DNA of 37,504 nucleotides from Myxococcales bacterium (GTDB lineage: Bacteria; Myxococcota_A; Bradymonadia; Bradymonadales; Bradymonadaceae). Below are positions 3,001 through 28,985 of this stretch, piece after piece; within the stretch, counting starts at the first letter, position 1; each line of letters opens with the position of its first letter. The notes under the pieces were generated by a model. It ran no database searches. It saw nothing but the letters and a program-made list of their open reading frames with translations, and was not told the origin of the DNA. Location: assembly GCA_007119175.1 (NCBI GenBank), contig SKQC01000390.1:1-37504 (forward strand). The letters run 5' to 3'. The position numbers were made by a program, and so were the translations under genes.

Positions 3001-3173
3001 AGATCGCCCTGCCCGGTCTCGGCGAGCCGAGGCAGCATCAGAGCCGCCAGGCCCACACACGCCAGGGTCCCCACAATCCACCACCGTCGCCGTTTCACAT
3101 TCGTCTTTTCATCCATTTCGACACCTCTTGATTGGCCTCGGCGATCGTCGATTTGATTCGCTTCATCAGTCAT
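1..3173 (-). CDS. PilY1/PilC-like type IV pilus tip-associated protein, partial (3' end beyond left edge)
   Basis: Manual reverse translation from ATG at 3173: MTDEANQIDDRRGQSRGVEMDEKTNVKRRRWWIVGTLACVGLAALMLPRL...APLVTIIFDSSSSMQW (VWA/MIDAS-like DxSxS). Near the left edge it reads EAWAYIPQLL...LMDGTPVVEDV, typical of the PilY1 C-terminal propeller. No stop seen in the stretches I translated or at the edge. It is missing from the ORF track because it has no stop in the window. Alternative start at 3116. Confidence 0.85.
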   Translation of the reverse strand, partial: MTDEANQIDDRRGQSRGVEMDEKTNVKRRRWWIVGTLACVGLAALMLPRLAETGQGDLGLSQAPLVTIIFDSSSSMQWTEEGEGKFPTLDNSESPYHSDGRHLKTWESGESRLGFSASREFTDEGLEPLFSGDNNWIRSVGPCMVWQPAHEDGGKDWDHEHCDDYTRPPPAVCDAGDNDCSDVYPKHPDRWYGDLEDMEEEMWDEPRLRLTDDANTPRHIQVKQILTGDMRLNHQTGEPSGPGCWFVPRFRGATNEEQVCCLELDDNGRCCDDVNSSGGCDQEDRRFGLYPDYDDPVPHYQEVYDTQLDNGLLDSMGSTALFSLAAFDGYRDGAVQSDGWPYDTRDVMAGSSPYNGVEWDGYPDPNCDNEDDSSCYDMGLYRFIGPSQFDIGQGDRMRSSNHVQEAILDMGFLEYYDDEDEEDWLRTLDGDYGDGSVPVFEYAMGRQPIAQSSPFGPVFHDLHQFYLNGQEDLDGDEINPFADDPYMACRARHSVIFTDGIAEPEAPGGAGDGLGSTTLMGGGFGYLPDRFPYMTAEDAIEEMIDAVIDEMENASDEELDEQYIPRVHTLGVGVPRPGDELREDVLKKLATMAEKGRTCAQFYLPANYVPDGYPTGQFDEEDDRIYGDCNVSEATREEPCLVPQNLGDYEGYEYEAPDGDSINCEHPAVILTHDDRDSLREAFTLIFNEIAGMSGLSAPTVPSITNHVDRGAGEIGQYRIYSGFSVAGDNPHWKGLLERQFLGCQADGNIDVDPGTDGEDAEYSLHDDLLRLRADTGTDFEDLPEEAADGDRRRVFTSLPQFVAEEEDEELDSMGLGGLGGSEANNFFNMTYQLYSAGNDGDTFGDEYTIPGIDDYEQEETRIPFDFSSLTAAFDDGPGLSSSEFRDYWRVDDDDELRDAIDEYRGRTDFRSDRVLGAIRNSNPVTVGPPSLDLPIDSYRAFQRLYSTRTTMTYTSTLDGQLRAIYTGEPETVLVNNNLAEGDDPAVDGGDDNDGGDAKQQREAWAYIPQLLHRKMASFAPSTAPDSLMDGTPVVEDVRLCVRGAGYSANNRLCPET

Positions 3174-3205
3174 TTTTTCTCTCCGGCAATCAACATCTTC
3201 GAGAC

Positions 3206-3907
3206 TCATCCGCTGCATTCGACGGGACCCAACATGGTGCGTTTGACGTGACGCCCCAGCGCCTGCGGTCGCCGGGCGCGCTCTTCAGCGGCCTCGCCGT
3301 CGTCCTCCAGGGTCACACCACCGAGATTTGCATGGGAACCGATGGTGACGACGAGAAAGCAGAAATCATCACCAAATCCCTGCACCCGGGGCCCGGACAT
3401 CAAGTCGCGGACGATATAACTATAATTCATGTCGTGGCGCGTCTCGACGGCGCCAACGAAGCCATTTCCGTCGAGAAGAGGCTGCCCCGTCCCGCCGCCT
3501 GCGGTCTGGATGGGATGTAAGGCATCGTCTGCCACGATCTGATCGGAATAGGCGTCGGTATCGGACCCAAAGAGCACCAATCCGCCGCGGCGCCGTATAC
3601 TATCCTGTTCATATTCATTGCTTGGAGGATCCGGATCATCAGCGTGCAATGGCTCATCCTGCAAGGTGTGGATATGATCGCGATATGCCGAGGCTTGATG
3701 GCCACCGCGGGCGACGCCGAGTTTATTGATGGCCGCCGAGAATGAATTAGCCTGGATGCGCAACTGCTGCATCGAGCTCAACGAGGCGCTCGTCGTCGTG
3801 GCGTGCAACGCCACCAATCCGAGTCCCGACAATACCAACATGACCAGCAGAGCGAGAATAAGAGCCGCTCCTCTCTCCGACTGCCAATTTTGGGTCGCTT
3901 CAATCAT
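3206..3907 (-). CDS. PilX-like minor pilin/assembly protein
   Basis: N-terminus QSERGAALILALLVMLVLSGLGLVALHATTTSA matches the PilX N-terminal prepilin-like pattern; located between pilW-like and pilY1-like genes. Confidence 0.75.
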   Translation of the reverse strand: MIEATQNWQSERGAALILALLVMLVLSGLGLVALHATTTSASLSSMQQLRIQANSFSAAINKLGVARGGHQASAYRDHIHTLQDEPLHADDPDPPSNEYEQDSIRRRGGLVLFGSDTDAYSDQIVADDALHPIQTAGGGTGQPLLDGNGFVGAVETRHDMNYSYIVRDLMSGPRVQGFGDDFCFLVVTIGSHANLGGVTLEDDGEAAEERARRPQALGRHVKRTMLGPVECSG

Positions 3908-18491: not shown

Positions 18492-18689
18492 ATCTATCGT
18501 CCCTATCTAGGAAATTGGGGTTCCCTGACTCGCCCGTTATAAGAAGCATCTATATCAGAGGACCAAATGGAGTCGAAGGTGCGGGTCGCCACCATCGTTG
18601 CACTTCCACTGAGCCGTGACACATTGCAACAAAACCAAGTACGCTCAGCTCCTACGCTCGTCGTTGTGCACGATATCTGGAGTTTACCC

Positions 18690-21600
18690 ATGTCCTCATC
18701 GCGACGCCTGACACCGATTGCTGTGGCACTTTTCGCCACGGCCATGCTGACCATCCTCGCCTGTGTCGAAGATCCAGACTCCTTTGAAAGCGGCGATGTG
18801 GGAAGTGATAACCATTTTTGCAGCGCCGGAGCAGAGTTTTGCGAAGAGGCCACAGAAGCCGGTGGCGCCTGCATTAATCTCACAAGCGATCCCAACCACT
18901 GCGGTGAATGTGGCCGTCATTGTGACGACGGACCGGAACACTCAATTCCGAGCTGCATCGACGGTGATTGTGAGTTTATCTGCGAGGTGGGCTTCGATGA
19001 ATGCGACGGTCGATGTGTAGACTTCGAATCCGACCCCGATGCCTGTGGAGGTTGTGGCGACGAATTCTCATGCACTCCGGACCAGGTCTGCACTGCCGAG
19101 GGCTGCGATGACGATTGCACTGCAGGCCTTGAGGAGTGCGACGGAGGCTGCGTTGATACCGATAATAATGTCCTCCACTGCGGCGGATGCAATATTGACT
19201 GCGACGAGGGCGAACAATGCTCTGCCGGCGAGTGTCTGCCCGAGGAATGTCCCGGCGACCTCGAATTGTGCGGCGCTGATTGCGTTGACGTGAGCACCGA
19301 CGTCGCCCATTGCGGAGTGTGCGACAATCAATGTCTGTCGGGCGATTGCGAGGACTCACTATGCGACGCCCTTCCCTGTGATGGCGTAGACGGCCCATTC
19401 GGCGGCGGCTCGGGCACGGAGCAAGACCCCTTTACGATCTGTACCGTCGAGCACCTGCAAAATGTGGATACCGAATTAGATGCCCATTTCGCTCTCAGCG
19501 ACTCCGTTGACCTTGAGGGCGTTGAGTTTGAGCCGATCGGCACTGCCGATACGCCGTTTTCCGGCTCTTTTGACGGTCTGGGGCGAGCGCTAAAAAACCT
19601 GACGCTATGGCGCGACGACGTCCCCGACCTGGGCCTATTTGCTCACACTTCCGAAGGTGCGGAGCTGACTAATTTGCGCCTTAAACAGGCAGCGATCTCC
19701 GGCGATTCAAATGTGGGCGCACTCGTTGGCCAAAACCACGGCACCCTGCGCAATATCACCGTTGAAGCAGCGGTCGCCGGGACTGGCGAAAATATCGGCG
19801 GGATGGTTGGCGAAAACCACGGAGCGATTTCTCTTGCCGAGTTGGCGGTGACCGTCGACGCCGATGAGGCCCAATACGTAGGGGGCCTGGCGGGCGTCAG
19901 CACGGCTTCAATTTCGCAATCCTCGGCAGCGGGACAAACCTCTGGGAATGCCACCGTGGGCGGACTTGTCGGAGACCTCCGAGACAGCGCGTCGCTCGAC
20001 GATGTGCAGACCAATATGACCGTCGTCGCCTCCGGCGATGACGCGGGAGGTCTTGTGGGATCACTGGGCGACGACCTAATGATCACCGACTCCACGGCGC
20101 TCGGTAATACGACCGGGGAAAACGCCGTCGGCGGCCTGGTCGGTGTCGCTATCTCCAATGGCGTTATTCGAAATTCACAGGGTATGGGCAACGTCACCGG
20201 CCACGGCGACCACGTCGGTGGACTGGTGGGTTATCTCGGTGGCGACTCCACCATCGACGCCTCCACGGCAGCCGGTACGGTCACAATTCATGACGGGATC
20301 CGCGCTGGCGGCCTCGCCGGCGAAGCGTCGTATAATACGGAAATAATCGACTCTTCGGCATCGGGCTCGGTTCTATCCCTTGAGGAAAACCGGAACGTCG
20401 GCGGGCTGATCGGCTTTAATTCCGGACTGGTAGACTCCTCAAACGCCACTGGCGCCGTTTTCGGCGGCGACTATACCGGGGGGTTGATCGGGCAGAACAA
20501 CGGGACCATCCAGTCGTCTCGAGCCTGGGGTGGCGTCATCGGCCACGGCCGGCGCGTCGGCGGCCTGGTGGGGCGAAATCGCGCCGAGGACGTCGGCGAT
20601 GCCTGCGAGATTCGCGACTCTCAGGCCTCGGGCGCCGTCTTCGTCGTCGGCGGGGAAGAAGAGATCGGCGGACTCGCCGGGCGTCATGGCGAGGGCGAAT
20701 GCCTGATCGTCAACTCCTGGGCCACCGGAAATGTCACGGCCACCGACAGTCGACGCGTCGGCGGCCTCGTCGGTCGTCACGCAAGAGACGCAGAAATCCG
20801 CGACTCCTGGGCACAGGGAGATGTCGCAGGCGATCGAGTCGTCGGCGGCCTCGTCGGTCGGGCGACCGAGGAAGCCCAGATTATCAGTTCCTATGCCACA
20901 GGTTCGGTGGAGGGAAATGACAGCCGCATCGGGGGGCTGGTAGGACGGATGCTCCACGACACAATGGTCGTTGACTCCTGGGCCAGTGGAGATGTCTCAG
21001 GCGACGTGCGCACCGGCGGTCTCGTGGGGCAAATGATCGACAATTCGGTGGTCGAAGAGTCCGATTCCTTCGGCCATGTCAGCGCCAGAGCGCGAGTCGG
21101 CGGCCTCATCGGGCGAATGCACGATGAATCGTCTGTATCGCAGAGTAGCGCAGCCGGCCATGTCGTTGCCGATGAGGAAGTCGGCGGCCTCATCGGCCGA
21201 ATGCAGAATGAATCGTCTGTTTCTGAGGGTAACGCCGCCGGTGAGGTGCACGGACAAAACCGCGTCGGCGGACTGGTGGGCCTGGCCATTCACAACACCG
21301 AGATCGACGACTCACATGCCACCGGCAATGTCTCCGGGGGAAGGTATACCGGCGGCCTCGTGGGGCGGATGTCTGACGAGGCGGCGATTTCGACCACCAC
21401 GGCATCAGGCGATGTCGTCGGCGACGACGTCCAGACCGGCGGGCTCGTCGGAAAGGCCCGCCACCAGACGAGCATCTCCGACTCCCAGGCACTCGGCAAT
21501 CGGGTCGAGGGCACCTCCCGGGTCGGCGGATTGGTCGGAAAACTCCTCAACGGTGCAGAGGTTTCGGACGTCTCGTCGACCGCCGAAGTCGTTGCTGAGG

Positions 21601-22811
21601 AAGGATATGCCGGCGGCTTGATCGGCTATATGGACGATAATTCAAGTGCCATCGCTGCCACCGCCGAAGGAGACGTTGAGGGACATAACAATTATGTGGG
21701 CGGCTTTGCGGGAAGGATAAGAGGTGGCGTTTTCGTCGAAGACGCGACGGCCTCCGGAGATGTCGTGAGCACCGATCACGATGTTGGCGGACTCGTCGGT
21801 CGAGTCACCGGCGAGATTGTCGAATCGCACGCAACGGGAGGCGTCGAGGGCCGAGACCACATCGGCGGACTGGTGGGACGGCTCGACAATTCCGGCACCA
21901 TCGACGACTGCACCGCCACCGGTGAGGTCATCGGCGACAGATACCGTGTGGGCGGATTGATCGGCTATATGAACGACAACGCCGTAGTCTACGACTCCTC
22001 GGCGACAGGCGATGTTCACGGCAAAGACTTAAACGTCGGCGGACTGGTGGGCCGAATGAATGGAGACGCCGAACTGCAGGAATCCTACGCCACCGGTATG
22101 GTTCATAGCGAGGCAGCGCGCGTCGGAGGGTTGGTCGGCTATATGGACGATCACTCTCGAGTCTACGATTCCTTCGCCACGGGAGACGTGGACGGTGACG
22201 ACACCCGAGTGGGCGGTCTCGTCGGCTATATGGACAATGAGGCGAGGGTCTATGACTCCTATGCCGCGGGCCCCGTCCACGGTGAAGGCGATTATGTCGG
22301 CGGACTGGTTGGGCGAATGATCGAGTCCTCACAGGTCCATCGATCCTTTGCCCACGGAGATGTGATCGGCGACAACGAATACGTCGGCGGGCTTGTGGGA
22401 CGCGTCGATGATGACTCCAGCGAAATTCACAATAGCTATGCCATGGGCGACGTCACCGGCGATGATAAGGTGGGCGGTCTCATCGGCGAGGACCGCGGAG
22501 ATATAACCGCCAAATGCTATTCCATCGGCTCCGTCGAGGCCCTCGACGGCGACGATGTCGGTGGATTGGTCGGCAACCGCGGCGGCGATGTCGAAGATTC
22601 ATATTGGGACGAAGACACCAGCAATCAGGAATCCACCAGCGGCGGGGGAGAGCCTTTAGGAACCGAGGAATTTAAGTACGAAGACAATTTCGAGGACTGG
22701 GATTTCGACGATGACGAGATCTGGATCATGCCAGATGACGAAGGTCAATTGCAGGGAATGGGTGGCGACGAGGACAATATCCGCCCACGGCTGCACTGGG
22801 AATTTGATTAA
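18690..22811 (+). CDS. giant GLUG-repeat lipoprotein (adhesin-like) with Cys-rich N-terminus
   Basis: Lipobox LTILACVED at start 18690; Cys modules (HCGECGRHC, ACGGCGDEFSC, HCGGCNIDC, HCGVCDNQC); then about 34 GGLVG-type GLUG repeats by eye; C-terminal SYWDEDTSNQESTSGGGEPLGTEEFK typical of GLUG proteins. ORF track start is 18567. Confidence 0.85.
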   Translation: MSSSRRLTPIAVALFATAMLTILACVEDPDSFESGDVGSDNHFCSAGAEFCEEATEAGGACINLTSDPNHCGECGRHCDDGPEHSIPSCIDGDCEFICEVGFDECDGRCVDFESDPDACGGCGDEFSCTPDQVCTAEGCDDDCTAGLEECDGGCVDTDNNVLHCGGCNIDCDEGEQCSAGECLPEECPGDLELCGADCVDVSTDVAHCGVCDNQCLSGDCEDSLCDALPCDGVDGPFGGGSGTEQDPFTICTVEHLQNVDTELDAHFALSDSVDLEGVEFEPIGTADTPFSGSFDGLGRALKNLTLWRDDVPDLGLFAHTSEGAELTNLRLKQAAISGDSNVGALVGQNHGTLRNITVEAAVAGTGENIGGMVGENHGAISLAELAVTVDADEAQYVGGLAGVSTASISQSSAAGQTSGNATVGGLVGDLRDSASLDDVQTNMTVVASGDDAGGLVGSLGDDLMITDSTALGNTTGENAVGGLVGVAISNGVIRNSQGMGNVTGHGDHVGGLVGYLGGDSTIDASTAAGTVTIHDGIRAGGLAGEASYNTEIIDSSASGSVLSLEENRNVGGLIGFNSGLVDSSNATGAVFGGDYTGGLIGQNNGTIQSSRAWGGVIGHGRRVGGLVGRNRAEDVGDACEIRDSQASGAVFVVGGEEEIGGLAGRHGEGECLIVNSWATGNVTATDSRRVGGLVGRHARDAEIRDSWAQGDVAGDRVVGGLVGRATEEAQIISSYATGSVEGNDSRIGGLVGRMLHDTMVVDSWASGDVSGDVRTGGLVGQMIDNSVVEESDSFGHVSARARVGGLIGRMHDESSVSQSSAAGHVVADEEVGGLIGRMQNESSVSEGNAAGEVHGQNRVGGLVGLAIHNTEIDDSHATGNVSGGRYTGGLVGRMSDEAAISTTTASGDVVGDDVQTGGLVGKARHQTSISDSQALGNRVEGTSRVGGLVGKLLNGAEVSDVSSTAEVVAEEGYAGGLIGYMDDNSSAIAATAEGDVEGHNNYVGGFAGRIRGGVFVEDATASGDVVSTDHDVGGLVGRVTGEIVESHATGGVEGRDHIGGLVGRLDNSGTIDDCTATGEVIGDRYRVGGLIGYMNDNAVVYDSSATGDVHGKDLNVGGLVGRMNGDAELQESYATGMVHSEAARVGGLVGYMDDHSRVYDSFATGDVDGDDTRVGGLVGYMDNEARVYDSYAAGPVHGEGDYVGGLVGRMIESSQVHRSFAHGDVIGDNEYVGGLVGRVDDDSSEIHNSYAMGDVTGDDKVGGLIGEDRGDITAKCYSIGSVEALDGDDVGGLVGNRGGDVEDSYWDEDTSNQESTSGGGEPLGTEEFKYEDNFEDWDFDDDEIWIMPDDEGQLQGMGGDEDNIRPRLHWEFD
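19700..22620 (+). repeat. degenerate in-frame repeat array encoding GLUG motifs
   Basis: Recurrent GG(L/M/F)(V/I/A)G with SxATGxVxG, spaced about 25-30 aa; about 34 units counted by eye. Confidence 0.85.
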
Positions 22812-22945: not shown

Positions 22946-22953
22946 TCTGTATT
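22946..22953 (+). repeat. 8-bp target site duplication, left copy (TCTGTATT)
   Basis: Identical to 23065-23072; flanks the 111-bp inverted-repeat element exactly. Confidence 0.75.
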
Positions 22954-23064
22954 GTAAGCGTTCAGCCCCCGGGGCCCGCGGCCAGCCTGGCCGCCTTTCG
23001 GACTGCTAGCCCGAAACTTAGGGGCGTACTGGCGCATAACTTCGTCAACCAACTGAACGCTTGC
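22954..23064. mobile_element. IS66-family-like MITE (non-autonomous, 111 bp)
   Basis: IRL GTAAGCGTTCAG (22954-22965) and IRR GCAAGCGTTCAG (reverse complement of 23053-23064), 11/12 matches; perfect 8-bp flanking duplication. GTAA-type ends plus 8-bp duplications are typical of IS66-family elements. Confidence 0.7.
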
Positions 23065-23072
23065 TCTGTATT
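23065..23072 (+). repeat. 8-bp target site duplication, right copy (TCTGTATT)
   Basis: Identical to 22946-22953. Confidence 0.75.
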
Positions 23073-23095: not shown

Positions 23096-24043
23096 ATGTC
23101 TATCCTGTTTCGACACATCCAAATTTCCATCGCCTGTTTGATGGCGTTGCTCATCGCGGTGGGCTGCGGTGACGATCCCGTCACGACGTCACAACCGTAT
23201 TTTGACGAGGCGTCGCCGGAACCGGGCGCCCCCCTGAGCGAATACGAACGTCGCTTTGGCGACTCCCATCTAGTGCGCTACGCCGCTCCTTTTCCGGAAA
23301 ATACGGCGATCCTCAACGATTCCGCCCGCCGAGGCCCGGGACTGCCCTTGATGCTTCAAGGCGACTACTCCATCGAGGCCGACGGCGGATTGCGCATCGA
23401 TGGCGACGGCCCTGACGAGGCCGGAGGCATCGCCACACCCGGCGATGACGCTCGGCTGCCTCAGCGCCTCCGCGACGCCATGGCCGGCAGCGGATTTACC
23501 GCGGAATTCTTCGTCCATACCGGTGGGATCACCATTCACGGTGGTATCTCCAGCCCCGCTCGCGTCTTCGCCATCGGCGAGGGAATTGCAAATAATACGC
23601 TCGTCGGCGGATTTCACGAGCAAGTCGAGGGGGCATTGGAGCTGCAATTTCAATTGCCCGACGCCCACTTCGAGCGAAGAACCTTTATGAAGACGTCGGT
23701 AGTCCGTCACGATCAGGCGCACCACGTAGCGCTGGTCTATCGCCGCGAAGGCGAGCGTCTGGGACTATATGTCGACGGCCAATTGGAGAGCACCGCCGTG
23801 TGGGAACGCCTCGACGACAGTACCCCCCAGCAGATCTCTCAGGCCGATCTTCCGGAAGCGCTATTTTCCACGGTCGGTGACAACGAATTGTTCGTGGTGG
23901 CGAATACTCCTCGCGGCACGACCCGGTATTTCAGCGGCATCATCTACCATATGGCCATCCACGACAGAGCGCACGACGCAGACGAAATCTCGGCAATGAA
24001 CGAACTTCTTCGCCAACGCTACTGCGGCCAGGAAGGATGCTGA
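23096..24043 (+). CDS. LamG/concanavalin-like domain lipoprotein (copy 1)
   Basis: Lipobox LLIAVGCGDD; FTAEFFVHTGGITIHG...HHVALVYRREGERLGLYVDGQLESTAVW...FSGIIYHMAIHDRA is a LamG-type pattern; C-terminus RYCGQEGC. Confidence 0.8.
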   Translation: MSILFRHIQISIACLMALLIAVGCGDDPVTTSQPYFDEASPEPGAPLSEYERRFGDSHLVRYAAPFPENTAILNDSARRGPGLPLMLQGDYSIEADGGLRIDGDGPDEAGGIATPGDDARLPQRLRDAMAGSGFTAEFFVHTGGITIHGGISSPARVFAIGEGIANNTLVGGFHEQVEGALELQFQLPDAHFERRTFMKTSVVRHDQAHHVALVYRREGERLGLYVDGQLESTAVWERLDDSTPQQISQADLPEALFSTVGDNELFVVANTPRGTTRYFSGIIYHMAIHDRAHDADEISAMNELLRQRYCGQEGC

Positions 24044-25017
24044 TGCACAATCGGTGGCCAACGAAAATCAAGGCGCCAATCTGCGCCGCCATATGGATTT
24101 TGATTTGTCTTTTCTCCGTTGCCAGTTGTATCGACGATCCCGACGAAATTACGACTACCACGCCCCTGCCGCCACACGCTCACGACATGAGCGAAAGCGA
24201 CGACGATCCTCCCGAGGACTACGAGGAGGCGTTTTCCCACTCGTCCGTATTGAGCTACAGCACCCCCTTTTCGGCGTCGCCTCCCATTGTCAACGACAGC
24301 TCCGGTCGCATCCCGGGGGTTCCCCTGAGATTGGCGTCGCCCTACTCTGTCGACGACGATGGCGCCCTGCGAATGGCCGCAGCCGACGAGGGCAACGACG
24401 GCGGTCACGCCTCATCGCAACCGGACGTCGATCTTCCCGGTTATTTTATCCAATATTTAGGTGGCGACTACGATTTTACGGTGGAGTTTTTCGTCCACAC
24501 CGGGGGGATGACCTTCCACGGAGACATGGCCGACGCAGCACTGGTATTTTCCGTCGCCAAACCGGGATCCGACAGCTTTTTGAGCGCTGGCTTCCACCAG
24601 ATCGATGGTGAAATCCATACTCAATTACGGCTGCCCGACCAGACACTCGGCGATCCACTATACGTCAGCAGCTATGATGTATATCTCGATCGCCACCACC
24701 ACATCGCCTTCGTCTACCACGCCCGCTACAACGATATGACGGTCTACGTCGACGGTCACCGGGTCTCCTCGCAGGCATATCACCGCTACTCCACAGTAGC
24801 CCCTCCGGAGCCGCTGGACCGACTTCCCTATCCCCTTTTCGGTGATTTCGATGCCGGTAATCGACTCGCCGTCGGCAACCGACCCGGCCCCTACGATCGC
24901 TACTTCAGCGGCGCGATCTATCACCTCGGCTTTCACGACCGAGCCTGGGACGCAGCGGCGGTCGCGGAGATGAATAAACTGCACCGGGAGCGATTTTGCG
25001 GCTCCGAGGGGTGCTAG
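24043..25017 (+). CDS. LamG/concanavalin-like domain lipoprotein (copy 2, tandem paralogue)
   Basis: FTVEFFVHTGGMTFHG...HHIAFVYHARYNDMTVYVDGHRVSSQAY...FSGAIYHLGFHDRAWD; lipobox FSVASCIDD; C-terminus RFCGSEGC. Start 24037 or 24043, overlapping the end of copy 1. Confidence 0.8.
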   Translation: MHNRWPTKIKAPICAAIWILICLFSVASCIDDPDEITTTTPLPPHAHDMSESDDDPPEDYEEAFSHSSVLSYSTPFSASPPIVNDSSGRIPGVPLRLASPYSVDDDGALRMAAADEGNDGGHASSQPDVDLPGYFIQYLGGDYDFTVEFFVHTGGMTFHGDMADAALVFSVAKPGSDSFLSAGFHQIDGEIHTQLRLPDQTLGDPLYVSSYDVYLDRHHHIAFVYHARYNDMTVYVDGHRVSSQAYHRYSTVAPPEPLDRLPYPLFGDFDAGNRLAVGNRPGPYDRYFSGAIYHLGFHDRAWDAAAVAEMNKLHRERFCGSEGC

Positions 25018-25193: not shown

Positions 25194-26975
25194 ATGAATA
25201 ACACCCAAACTTGGCTCTTTAGGCTCCCATTGGCCGTCATTATTTTCGTCTTCGCCGCCTATGGCTGCGTGGGATGTGAAGACGGTATTTCGAGCGGCGA
25301 TTGCGACAGCGACGAGGTGTGGGACAGCGACGCCGAAGAGTGCATTCCCGACTTGACCCAGATCGATGCCGGCAGCAGCGACGCAATCGGCGGGGGCAAC
25401 GGAGGAACAGGTGACGGCGGCCAAACGACCGGCGACGGTGGTGGTGGCACTGAGCCTCCCTGCGTCAATCTGGCCTGCGATCAGGTCGAGTGTCCCGACG
25501 GCCAGACGACGACCAGTCTCTCCGGAAATGTCACCATTCCCTCCGGCGAACTGCCTTTGCCAAACGTCAGCGTCTACGTTCCCAACTCCGAACTCGGCCC
25601 CATCGCCCAGGGGGCCTCCTGTGAGCGCTGCGAGGATATGGTCACCGGCGATCCCCTGGTTCACACCACCACCAATCCCCGCGGTAATTTTTATCTGGAG
25701 GACGTCCCGGTCACCGATAATCTGCCCCTGGTAATCCAGACCGGCAAATGGCGCCGGAAGGTCGAGATCTCCACCGTCGAAGAATGCACGGAAAATCAGG
25801 TCGATCCCGACAAGACCCGCCTTCCCCGCAATCGCAGCGAAGGAGAGATTCCGTCTATCGCCGTGACCACTGGAAATTGCGACGCTCTGGAGTGTCTGCT
25901 GCTCGATATCGGCCTCGACGATGAGGAATTCAGCACCGATGTCGGCAATGGTGCCGTCCACCTTTTCACCGGTAGCTCCGGCTCCACCGGCTGGGCCAGT
26001 TATCCCACAGGTACAAATAGCTTTGACCACTCCTTTAGTTCGGAGACCCGAAACTTCAGCGACGGCACGACGTATTGGAATGATATAGATAACCTGCTCC
26101 AATACGACATGATGCTTCACTCCTGCGAATGCAACCCCTATGCAGACCAAAAATCGCAACAAGCCCGCGACGCACTTCAAGCATATGCCTATGAGGGCGG
26201 ACGAGTCTTTTTGTCCCACTGGCACAATACCTGGCTGGAAGACGGTCCCGCCGATTTTCGATCCGTCGCCGACTGGCGAAGCGACAACTCCGTGGGATTT
26301 AACACGGTCACCACCGCCTATATCGACGAGTCCTTCGCCGCTGGATCGCGAATGTACGAATGGATGGATTACGTCGATGGGCTCAACGCCACCGATGGCG
26401 TCGACATCCATGAGGGGCGAATCACCGTGCAATCCATCAATCCCACGCTGGCGGAGCGATGGTTGTATATTCCCTATCAGGGCACTGACTGGGATCATTA
26501 TTTTGCGTTCAATACGCCCGTCGGCGCCGCCGAAGAACAGGAATGTGGACGCGTGGTCTTCAGCGATCTCCACGTGGCCGCCGGAAACCAGTCCAGCCCC
26601 TCTCATCCCTTTCCCACCGGATGTATTGGCACTGAGCTGAGCGGCCAGGAAAAAGCGCTGATTTATATGCTCTTCGACCTCTCAGCGTGCATCACTGATT
26701 GTGTCCCATTGCGCTGTGAGGATATCACCGGAGCCTGTGGGCTGGAGCCCGACGGCTGTGGAAGCCACATCGAGTGCGACGAATGCTGCGTCGAAGAAGA
26801 CGAGCCCTGCGAGGTCGACGACGATTGCTGCCACAGCTTGTGGTGCGATGACGACACCGGGCTATGCACCGATCGCTGCCGAGATCCCGGCGAGCGCTGC
26901 GACCAGAACTCGGATTGTTGCTCCAACGTCTGCGACGCGACGGCCGGCGATGAGGGCGAATGCATCGAGCTTTGA
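25194..26975 (+). CDS. lipoprotein with carboxypeptidase-regulatory-like domain, ThuA/GATase-like central region and cystine-rich tail (copy 1)
   Basis: Signal/lipobox near AAYGCVGC; LSGNVTIPSGELPLPNVSVYVPN...NPRGNFYLEDVP resembles a carboxypeptidase regulatory-like beta-sandwich; LQYDMMLHSCE...ALQAYAYEGGRVFLSHWHNTW; tail CEVDDDCCHSLWC...CDQNSDCCSNVC. Confidence 0.8.
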   Translation: MNNTQTWLFRLPLAVIIFVFAAYGCVGCEDGISSGDCDSDEVWDSDAEECIPDLTQIDAGSSDAIGGGNGGTGDGGQTTGDGGGGTEPPCVNLACDQVECPDGQTTTSLSGNVTIPSGELPLPNVSVYVPNSELGPIAQGASCERCEDMVTGDPLVHTTTNPRGNFYLEDVPVTDNLPLVIQTGKWRRKVEISTVEECTENQVDPDKTRLPRNRSEGEIPSIAVTTGNCDALECLLLDIGLDDEEFSTDVGNGAVHLFTGSSGSTGWASYPTGTNSFDHSFSSETRNFSDGTTYWNDIDNLLQYDMMLHSCECNPYADQKSQQARDALQAYAYEGGRVFLSHWHNTWLEDGPADFRSVADWRSDNSVGFNTVTTAYIDESFAAGSRMYEWMDYVDGLNATDGVDIHEGRITVQSINPTLAERWLYIPYQGTDWDHYFAFNTPVGAAEEQECGRVVFSDLHVAAGNQSSPSHPFPTGCIGTELSGQEKALIYMLFDLSACITDCVPLRCEDITGACGLEPDGCGSHIECDECCVEEDEPCEVDDDCCHSLWCDDDTGLCTDRCRDPGERCDQNSDCCSNVCDATAGDEGECIEL

Positions 26976-27176: not shown

Positions 27177-28985
27177 ATGGATCGATCCTCCCTTCGATCG
27201 GGCGACACCCGCCTGAACCTATTCGTCATCTCCTGTGGTTTGCTGCTCGTCATCACAGCATGCAGCACCGACCCCTTAAGTCCCAGCGACTGCGACGGCG
27301 ACGAAACCTGGGATGAGGCGCAAGAAGAATGCATCGGCGGCTCTACCCCCGGAGACGACGCTGGCCATGTGGACACAAACTCCACGACACCGAATCAGAC
27401 CAATAACACCCCCAATACCGGTCCCAACTCCACGCCGAATAGCGGCAACAACACCAATAACACCCCCAATAATGGCGAGGAAGACACGGGCAACGGTGAG
27501 CCGGCCTGCGTCAATCTGGAGTGTGACCAGGTCGCCTGCCCCAGCGACGCGGAGCCAACGAGCCTCAGCGGCACCGTGCATATTCCCTCCGGCGATCTCC
27601 CCCTGCCCAACGTCACAGTCTATGTGCCCAATGCCGAATTGGATGACATCACCGAAGGCGTCTCCTGTGAGCGCTGCGAGGATATGGTCACGGGCAACCC
27701 GCTGGTTCAGACCACGACCGATATGCGCGGCGATTTTCATCTTTCGAACGTTCCGGCCGGCGACAATATCCCCCTGGTCATGCAGACCGGAAAATGGCGC
27801 CGAAAAGTCGAGATATCGACCGTCGAAGAATGCACGGAAAACGAAATCACCGACCAGAACCTGACCCGCCTGCCGCGAAATCAGAGCGAAGGTAATATCC
27901 CCCGCATCGCCGTCTCCACCGGCGGCTGGGATGCCCTGGAATGCCTGATCTACGAGATTGGCCTCGACGACCAGGAATTTGGCACCGAAAATGACGCCAG
28001 CGGCCGGGTGACACTCTTTGCCGGAAACCACGGTGGCCACTCTGAATTCGCCAGCCATTTCCACGGCGGCGCCTCCTTTACCAGCGTCAGCAATTGGTGG
28101 AACGATTTCGAAAACCTCGCCGAATACGACATCGTCATGCACTCCTGCGACTATCCCGATCCCTCCGTGGAGGCCACTGAAGCTCTGGAGCAATTCGCCA
28201 ACGAAGGGGGACGCGCCTTTATGACCGATCTTCACCGCGAGTGGTTCGAATATGGCACCGCCGACTTTCAATCGGTGGCCAATTGGCAGACACCGATCGC
28301 CTATCCCGGGGTCAATATGTCGGCGCGCCTCGATCTGTCGCCCCCCGGCGCCGGTATGATGTTCGACTGGATGGACGCCCTGGGCCGATTCGACGTCAAT
28401 GACCAATTCGACGTGCAGTCAATCCAGAAGAATATCGGCTCCGTCAACACCGGGCTCGCCGAGCGATGGCTGTACTCTCCGGACGGTGCCACCGGTCAGC
28501 GCGATCTTTATTTTGCGTTCAATACCCCGGTGGGAGCCGGAGAAGACGATCAGTGCGGCCGCGTCGTCTACAGTGACCTGCACGTCGCCGCCGGTGGGGG
28601 CGCCGATCCCAATCAGCGCTTTCCCGACAGTTGCACCGGCACAATGTCCACCCAGGAAGAGGCATTGGTCTATATGTTCTTTGACCTCGCCGCCTGCATC
28701 GCTCCGGACTGCATCCCCGTCACCTGTAGCGATGTCCCCGACAATTGTGGCACCCACCCCAACGAGTGCGGTGGCACCATCGACTGTGGCGAGTGCTGTG
28801 AGGAAATCGACGAGCCCTGTGAGGTCGACGAGGACTGCTGTGACAGCCTGTGGTGCGATGACAACACCGGATTGTGCACCGACCGCTGCCGCGATCCCGG
28901 CGAGCGCTGCGATCAGAACTCGGACTGCTGCTCCAATGTCTGCGATGAATCGGCGGGCGACGACGGCGAGTGCATTGAACTCTGA
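27177..28985 (+). CDS. paralogue of 25194-26975 (copy 2), lipoprotein
   Basis: Lipobox LLLVITACSTD; same architecture (LSGTVHIPSGDLPLPNVTVYVPN, CERCEDMVTG, GKWRRKVEISTVEECTEN); near-identical C-terminal cystine-rich tail. Confidence 0.8.
   Translation: MDRSSLRSGDTRLNLFVISCGLLLVITACSTDPLSPSDCDGDETWDEAQEECIGGSTPGDDAGHVDTNSTTPNQTNNTPNTGPNSTPNSGNNTNNTPNNGEEDTGNGEPACVNLECDQVACPSDAEPTSLSGTVHIPSGDLPLPNVTVYVPNAELDDITEGVSCERCEDMVTGNPLVQTTTDMRGDFHLSNVPAGDNIPLVMQTGKWRRKVEISTVEECTENEITDQNLTRLPRNQSEGNIPRIAVSTGGWDALECLIYEIGLDDQEFGTENDASGRVTLFAGNHGGHSEFASHFHGGASFTSVSNWWNDFENLAEYDIVMHSCDYPDPSVEATEALEQFANEGGRAFMTDLHREWFEYGTADFQSVANWQTPIAYPGVNMSARLDLSPPGAGMMFDWMDALGRFDVNDQFDVQSIQKNIGSVNTGLAERWLYSPDGATGQRDLYFAFNTPVGAGEDDQCGRVVYSDLHVAAGGGADPNQRFPDSCTGTMSTQEEALVYMFFDLAACIAPDCIPVTCSDVPDNCGTHPNECGGTIDCGECCEEIDEPCEVDEDCCDSLWCDDNTGLCTDRCRDPGERCDQNSDCCSNVCDESAGDDGECIEL
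27399..27471 (+). repeat. 19-bp direct repeat ACCAATAACACCCCCAATA (27399-27417 and 27453-27471) in N/T/P linker
   Basis: Exact repeat read directly from sequence, inside the coding region for TNNTPNTGPNSTPNSGNNTNNTPN. Confidence 0.8.

Follow-up and report, generated by a model that had tools for sequence, protein, structure and literature searches.

A MITE with IS66-type ends that very probably carries a captured REPIN in a bradymonad genome

Introduction

In the stretch of bradymonad DNA analysed here (37,504 nucleotides, hereafter the window), a short insert lies just upstream of a predicted lipoprotein gene, and the locus raises the question of what kind of element this is and what has spread it, together with the sequence in its interior, through the genome. 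The initial annotation, made from the sequence of the window, described an insert of 111 bp with ends matching at 11 of 12 positions between perfect 8-bp flanks (TCTGTATT), which can be read directly from the window, and took it for a fairly recent, very short non-autonomous derivative of the IS66 family. The interior was missed at that stage, and it is here that a near-invariant 17-nt hairpin, a second hairpin and a conserved right-hand stretch are found.

Materials and Methods

The genome to which the window belongs (G000) is a draft assembly of 5.37 Mb in 494 contigs, 86% complete. The copy census in this genome was made from sequence searches and retrieved stretches, and a covariance model of the MITE family was built from 34 copies. 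The copies used for conservation were picked by searches with the whole element, its ends or its right end, and not by the hairpin.

Results

The insert itself occupies positions 22954-23064 of the plus strand and is a full-length match to the family profile (131 bits), belonging to subfamily A. The target-site duplications on its left (22946-22953) and right (23065-23072), to which no strand is assigned, are perfect copies of each other, and 8-bp duplications are found also at most other copies. The left terminal inverted repeat, GTAAGCGTTCAG (22954-22965, plus strand), is of IS66 type and resembles the GTAAGCGCTCAG present at both ends of an IS66 element from the same phylum (L080). The right one (23053-23064, minus strand) reads GCAAGCGTTCAG, or CTGAACGCTTGC on the plus strand, and is one change away from the left end. 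Between them, all on the plus strand, lie a REP unit (22971-22994) composed of the tag GGGGCCC and the almost invariant 17-nt hairpin GCGGCCAGCCTGGCCGC (22978-22994); a second hairpin, TTTCGGACTGCTAGCCCGAAA (22996-23016), which appears to be a degenerate second REPIN half, judging from its fold, from paired changes between congeners and from the intact GGAGC-tagged inverted REP found there; and a right-hand segment (23031-23052, the GGCGCATAACTTCGTCAACCAA region) that is conserved in the copy alignment and includes the search motif GAYTTCGTCACC. No transposase or other recognised gene is contained in the element, which is thus short (MITEs are under about 300 bp), non-coding and bounded by inverted ends, as MITEs are.

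The window copy is intergenic. Upstream, on the plus strand, is a gene for a GLUG-repeat surface protein (18567-22811; PF07581, 294 bits), the stop codon of which lies 142 bp before the MITE, and downstream on the same strand is a gene for a predicted lipoprotein with a Laminin_G_3/ConA-like domain (23096-24043; PF13385, 45.5 bits). The ATG of the latter was confirmed at 23096, 31 bp past the right end, as originally placed. The downstream gene and the adjacent, slightly overlapping 24037-25017 are lipoprotein paralogs with Laminin_G_3, and the MITE lies upstream of the first only. Further on, 25194-26975 and 27177-28985 form a tandem pair of paralogs of about 600 amino acids with near-identical Cys-rich C-terminal ends (CRDPGERCDQNSDCCSNVCD). 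As RNA, the window element folds more stably than shuffled sequences (z about -2.6) at 31 bp from the start codon, and its hairpins could affect the 5' leader of the putative lipoprotein gene; the insert may also have displaced or split the native promoter or 5'UTR, as initially annotated. Neither a sigma-70-like promoter nor a terminator signal was seen at the window element, and an Rfam search with it gave no match. The DNA flanking the locus has no alignable counterpart in any congener.

That the insert is a mobile element with further copies at different 8-bp flanks was borne out by the genome search, so the arrangement at the window is not a chance pattern: a nucleotide search gave 48 matches in the window genome, most of them between differing 8-bp direct repeats. 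With the family model, at least 150 matches were obtained in the window genome, 51 in the congener G004, 37 in G003 and one in G001, and none in the congener G002 or in three other members of the taxonomic family; the MITE family is restricted to the genus. Among 70 full-length copies in the window genome, the 8-bp duplication was perfect at 31 and matched at 7 of 8 positions at 14 (45 of 70 at 7/8 or better), and randomly paired flanks, used as a control, gave 0.035% perfect and 0.115% 7/8 duplications. The duplications at the copies show that the family has moved with 8-bp target duplication. The exact end GTAAGCGTTCAG occurs at 78 sites in the window genome and its reversed control at none.

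Two subfamilies can be distinguished, a young one (B), with nearly identical copies, and an older one (A), which includes the window copy. Since the latter is a member of the older group and shares 95% identity with a consensus-like query, the intact duplication alone is no proof of a recent insertion, and the earlier dating is weak. No MITE copy lacking the REP was found among the copies recovered (the right-end-selected and the 70 full-length sets). At one locus (L229, contig C84 of the window genome, about 3100-3300), the right end of a young MITE copy is missing and 12 bp of target (GGCAACCCGTCT) are repeated on the other side; this loss is a deletion joined at the flank repeat.

The 17-mer GCGGCCAGCCTGGCCGC is present at 298 exact and about 350 near-exact sites in the window genome and at 13 and 18 exact sites in two congeners. 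No other genome among 379 of the phylum has more than 4 exact sites, and the 0-4 per genome outside the genus we take as chance. Together with its tag, this hairpin forms a 24-nt palindromic unit in high copy number, as expected of a REP (a tagged palindrome of 20-40 nt). Most described REPs carry a GTAG tag, and the tag here is GGGGYCC in the window genome and GGAGC in the congeners; the hairpin, though of REP type, thus falls outside the GTAG superfamily.

Copies of the REP are present outside the MITE as well. On contigs C13 to C156, picked by number alone, 110 hairpins were found in 57 clusters; the right end of the MITE was unrecognisable in 29 of these and the left end was also absent in about 19, some of the clusters running off their contigs. 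Free copies have a sharply bounded unit consisting of GGGGYCC and then the hairpin. They are often arrayed, 2 to 7 at a time, each repeat of the REP bringing along a locus-specific spacer. In several arrays (L118 and L228; also L133), target flank, left end and hairpin are repeated beside an intact element with the duplication outside the whole, and some arrays have thus grown in place after insertion of the MITE. Some of the free copies may be decayed MITEs or may have been cut by contig ends. Many contigs of the window genome (C15, C19, C26, C34, C35, C38, C101, C144 and others) end inside REP arrays, so that there are more and longer arrays than could be counted, and the arrays are one cause of the fragmented assembly. 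Beside or inside several arrays (L201, L213 and L217 on contigs C28, C110 and C130) a dispersed repeat like CGCAAAGAACGCAAAGAAATACAAAG was observed, which may be a separate repeat family.

The hairpin has hardly changed. In the older subfamily, substitutions were found at 6 of 612 hairpin sites, 63 of 782 sites in the ends and 164 of 1673 other G/C sites, a tenfold contrast, although the P values of this comparison treat sites as independent, which shared ancestry violates. In the copies found by the right-end motif (GAYTTCGTCACC), the hairpin was perfect in 45 of 53, with one change in 6 and two changes in 2. It follows from this near-invariance that RNAalifold detected no paired double change among the copies of the window genome; such changes are seen only in comparisons between species or with the repeats of the RAYT gene. 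Two explanations fit the contrast, selection on the hairpin at many sites and its continual renewal.

In the congeners G003 and G004, two GGAGC-tagged hairpins in inverted orientation make up the interior of the MITE, as in a REPIN, and the second hairpin differs on both of its sides between the two genomes (GCGGGCTGCCAGCCCGC vs GCGGACTGCCAGTCCGC). A GGAGC-tagged inverted pair was also found standing without MITE ends (L074). Two inverted REPs are therefore present in the copies of G003 and G004; in those of the window genome the second half forms a hairpin, with no clear tag.

One recognisable RAYT gene was found in the window genome, on contig C352 (NCBIfam NF047646, 86.9 bits at a cut-off of 80). 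It has GGGGTCC-tagged hairpins on both sides, 12 in all, and these repeats are identical to the REP unit of the MITE at 22 of 24 positions; the two hairpin types (GCGGGCAGCCTGCCCGC and GCGGCCTGCCAGGCCGC) are each one complementary pair of changes away from the MITE hairpin. By sequence, then, repeats of apparently cognate type flank this RAYT, and it probably recognises the REP of the MITE. The exact RAYT-flanking hairpin was rare away from the gene in the loci examined. RAYTs related to it (40-51% identity) occur in congeners and in further bradymonad assemblies. As one would expect of such genes, each is bordered by arrays of another palindrome, peculiar to it, and none has the MITE-type tagged hairpin beside it. 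The loci L370, L371, L367, L368 and L364 of other bradymonad assemblies, for example, hold their own palindromic arrays, such as TGGTGCGATGCCATCCCTGGCATCG or GGAGCGCCGGCATCCCTGCCGGCAT. The RAYT-side arrays of bradymonads look like fast-evolving, species-specific REP families.

As to the ends, the terminal inverted repeats of IS66 elements are 20-30 bp long, and the inverted match between the MITE ends stops after 12 bp; being shorter than in IS66 proper, it places the element among MITEs with IS66-type ends and not in IS66 itself. The inverted repeats of IS66 begin with GTAAGCG and the target duplication is 8 bp (PMC11946415), and the MITE has both. In the same phylum, the ends of L080 (GTAAGCGCTCAG at both) and of another IS66 element, L081, match the MITE end at 11 of 12 positions, and four others (L092, L095, L098, L101) have GTAA ends and perfect 8-bp duplications. 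The number of IS66 loci with GTAAGCGTTCAG-like 12-mers (8 of 30) is not above that of shuffled 12-mers (mean 4.5, maximum 14), so that the match to IS66 rests on the verified element ends and on the literature. What was annotated as IS66-type thus holds for the ends and the 8-bp duplications, and the description as a very short IS66 derivative is not supported, as no recognisable IS66 sequence lies in the interior, which is a REP or REPIN.

Neither TnpC nor TnpB of IS66 was found in the window genome (a draft, 86% complete, in 494 contigs). An IS66 remnant is present in the congener G001 (L129), with no MITE-like ends near it. Isolated ends considered as a possible autonomous partner were discarded: on C17 the end belongs to a truncated MITE next to an ordinary gene, and on C407 the sequence runs off the contig. 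We infer that the MITE was moved in trans by a DDE transposase, with IS66 as the most likely family. On contig C228 of G001 (L130), a short-period tandem repeat (one frame reads SVVGPSSVGPSSVG) and a larger repeated segment adjoin a partial IS66 TnpC and a Y1-like transposase frame.

Discussion

Taken together, the insert is very probably a non-autonomous DNA transposon, a MITE with ends of IS66 type and a captured REPIN inside. Its outer 12-bp ends would be recognised by a DDE transposase acting in trans, which would insert the element at new targets and duplicate 8 bp there. The capture may have come about by a REPIN landing in a MITE or by MITE ends gathering around a REPIN. The interior would have begun as an inverted pair of REPs, each a tag with a 17-nt hairpin, of which the first was presumably kept and the second decayed in the window species; the REP and the repeats on either side of the genome's RAYT would be of one family. 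The REP would have spread by two routes, carried within the MITE and alone, as free copies and in-place tandem arrays. We suggest tentatively, as a possibility that falls somewhat short of even, that two engines are at work, an IS66-type DDE transposase that moves the MITE by its ends and the RAYT (HUH) that recognises the inner REP and maintains or multiplies it. If so, each jump of the MITE would seed a REP, arrays would expand in place, and two non-autonomous families would spread together.

The driver could also belong to another DDE family that makes 8-bp duplications. This would agree with the failure to find IS66 TnpC or TnpB in the window genome (an 86% complete draft) and with inverted repeats of 12 bp and not 20-30, but we consider it unlikely, as the GTAAGCG start and the 8-bp duplication fit both the description of IS66 and the IS66 elements of the phylum, and one congener retains an IS66 remnant. 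The hairpins might be incidental to an ordinary IS66-type MITE, and the free hairpins and arrays might be broken MITEs multiplied by slippage at a stable, GC-rich palindrome. Several arrays did clearly form in place after insertion (L118, L228, L133), and many free copies retain a few MITE bases on one side. However, this account leaves unexplained the nearly identical tagged hairpins at the RAYT gene, the tagged inverted pairs in congeners and the roughly tenfold lower mutation of the hairpin in old copies, and it seems to us decidedly improbable.

The low mutation has a further possible source, namely that the hairpin is a host protein-binding site or an RNA element, spread by the MITE and selected copy by copy for gene control, a role proposed for BOX and BIME repeats. 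Its conservation is sequence-specific, with almost no change, even compensatory, in the window genome, and the RNA fold is more stable than that of shuffles (z -2.6). Strong conservation is nevertheless typical of REPs too (PMC3116915), and neither an Rfam match nor a promoter or terminator signal was found. The restriction to one genus and the burst in one species suggest selfish spread more than a host function, and there is little chance that this explanation is the right one. A BOX element as such was rejected, the boxA and boxC ends being absent, the ends consisting of GTAAGCG inverted repeats with 8-bp duplications, and Rfam giving no match.

A MITE with a captured REPIN would combine in one element two mobile-repeat systems that normally work apart. 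RAYT-driven movement of REPs has mostly been inferred, and how REPs and REPINs reach new places is therefore still open. In REPs carried by a MITE, the 8-bp duplication marks each arrival, so that new REPs can be dated and located and carriage by the MITE can be told apart from spread by the RAYT, and copies of different ages give a direct measure of the retention of the REP against the surrounding DNA. It also means that a short GC palindrome found hundreds of times in a genome may have been multiplied by a different transposon.

We found no description of a MITE carrying a REPIN in the open-access literature. The closest likeness of the interior is to the REPIN/RAYT system of Pseudomonas fluorescens SBW25 (PMC3116915), with which it shares the tagged short palindrome, inverted doublets, high copy number, strong conservation, related repeats at the RAYT and tandem clusters in which flanking sequence is repeated too. 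Unlike the SBW25 REPINs, the REP or REPIN here lies inside a MITE with transposon ends and 8-bp duplications, its tag is GGGG/GGAG and not GTAG, and the second REP has decayed in the window species. The ends and the duplication are those of the IS66 family (PMC11946415; L080, L098, L101), whereas the lack of coding sequence, the 12-bp inverted repeat, the non-IS66 interior and the absence of a detected autonomous partner in the genome set the element apart from it. Among MITEs, MITEPsy1 (100 nt) and MITEPsy3 (102 bp, 78 copies) of Pseudomonas syringae (PMC3189936, PMC6053426) are likewise about 100 bp long and non-coding with terminal inverted repeats, MITEPsy3 being similar also in its high copy number and MITEPsy1 in its target duplication. 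They are attributed to IS5 (ISPsy2) and IS630 (ISPsy25), in contrast to the IS66-type ends, 8-bp duplication and internal REP observed here.

In Streptococcus pneumoniae, BOX (PMC3049150) is similarly MITE-like and modular, with an internal module in variable tandem copies (boxB between boxA and boxC), but the module described here is found free as well, with spacers specific to each locus, and is similar to the repeats of a RAYT. Longer palindromes with a REP dimer inserted in them have been reported for GTAG-15 of Anabaena variabilis and CGTC-1 of H. neapolitanus (PMC3733652), and there, too, the dimer is regularly enclosed by a second repeated inverted-repeat sequence. Neither target duplications nor ends of transposon type were described for those cases, whereas the carrier here is demonstrably a MITE. 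MITEs, IS66-type ends, REPs and REPINs are thus each already known, and it is their combination, a REP or REPIN within a MITE, that is a new variant.
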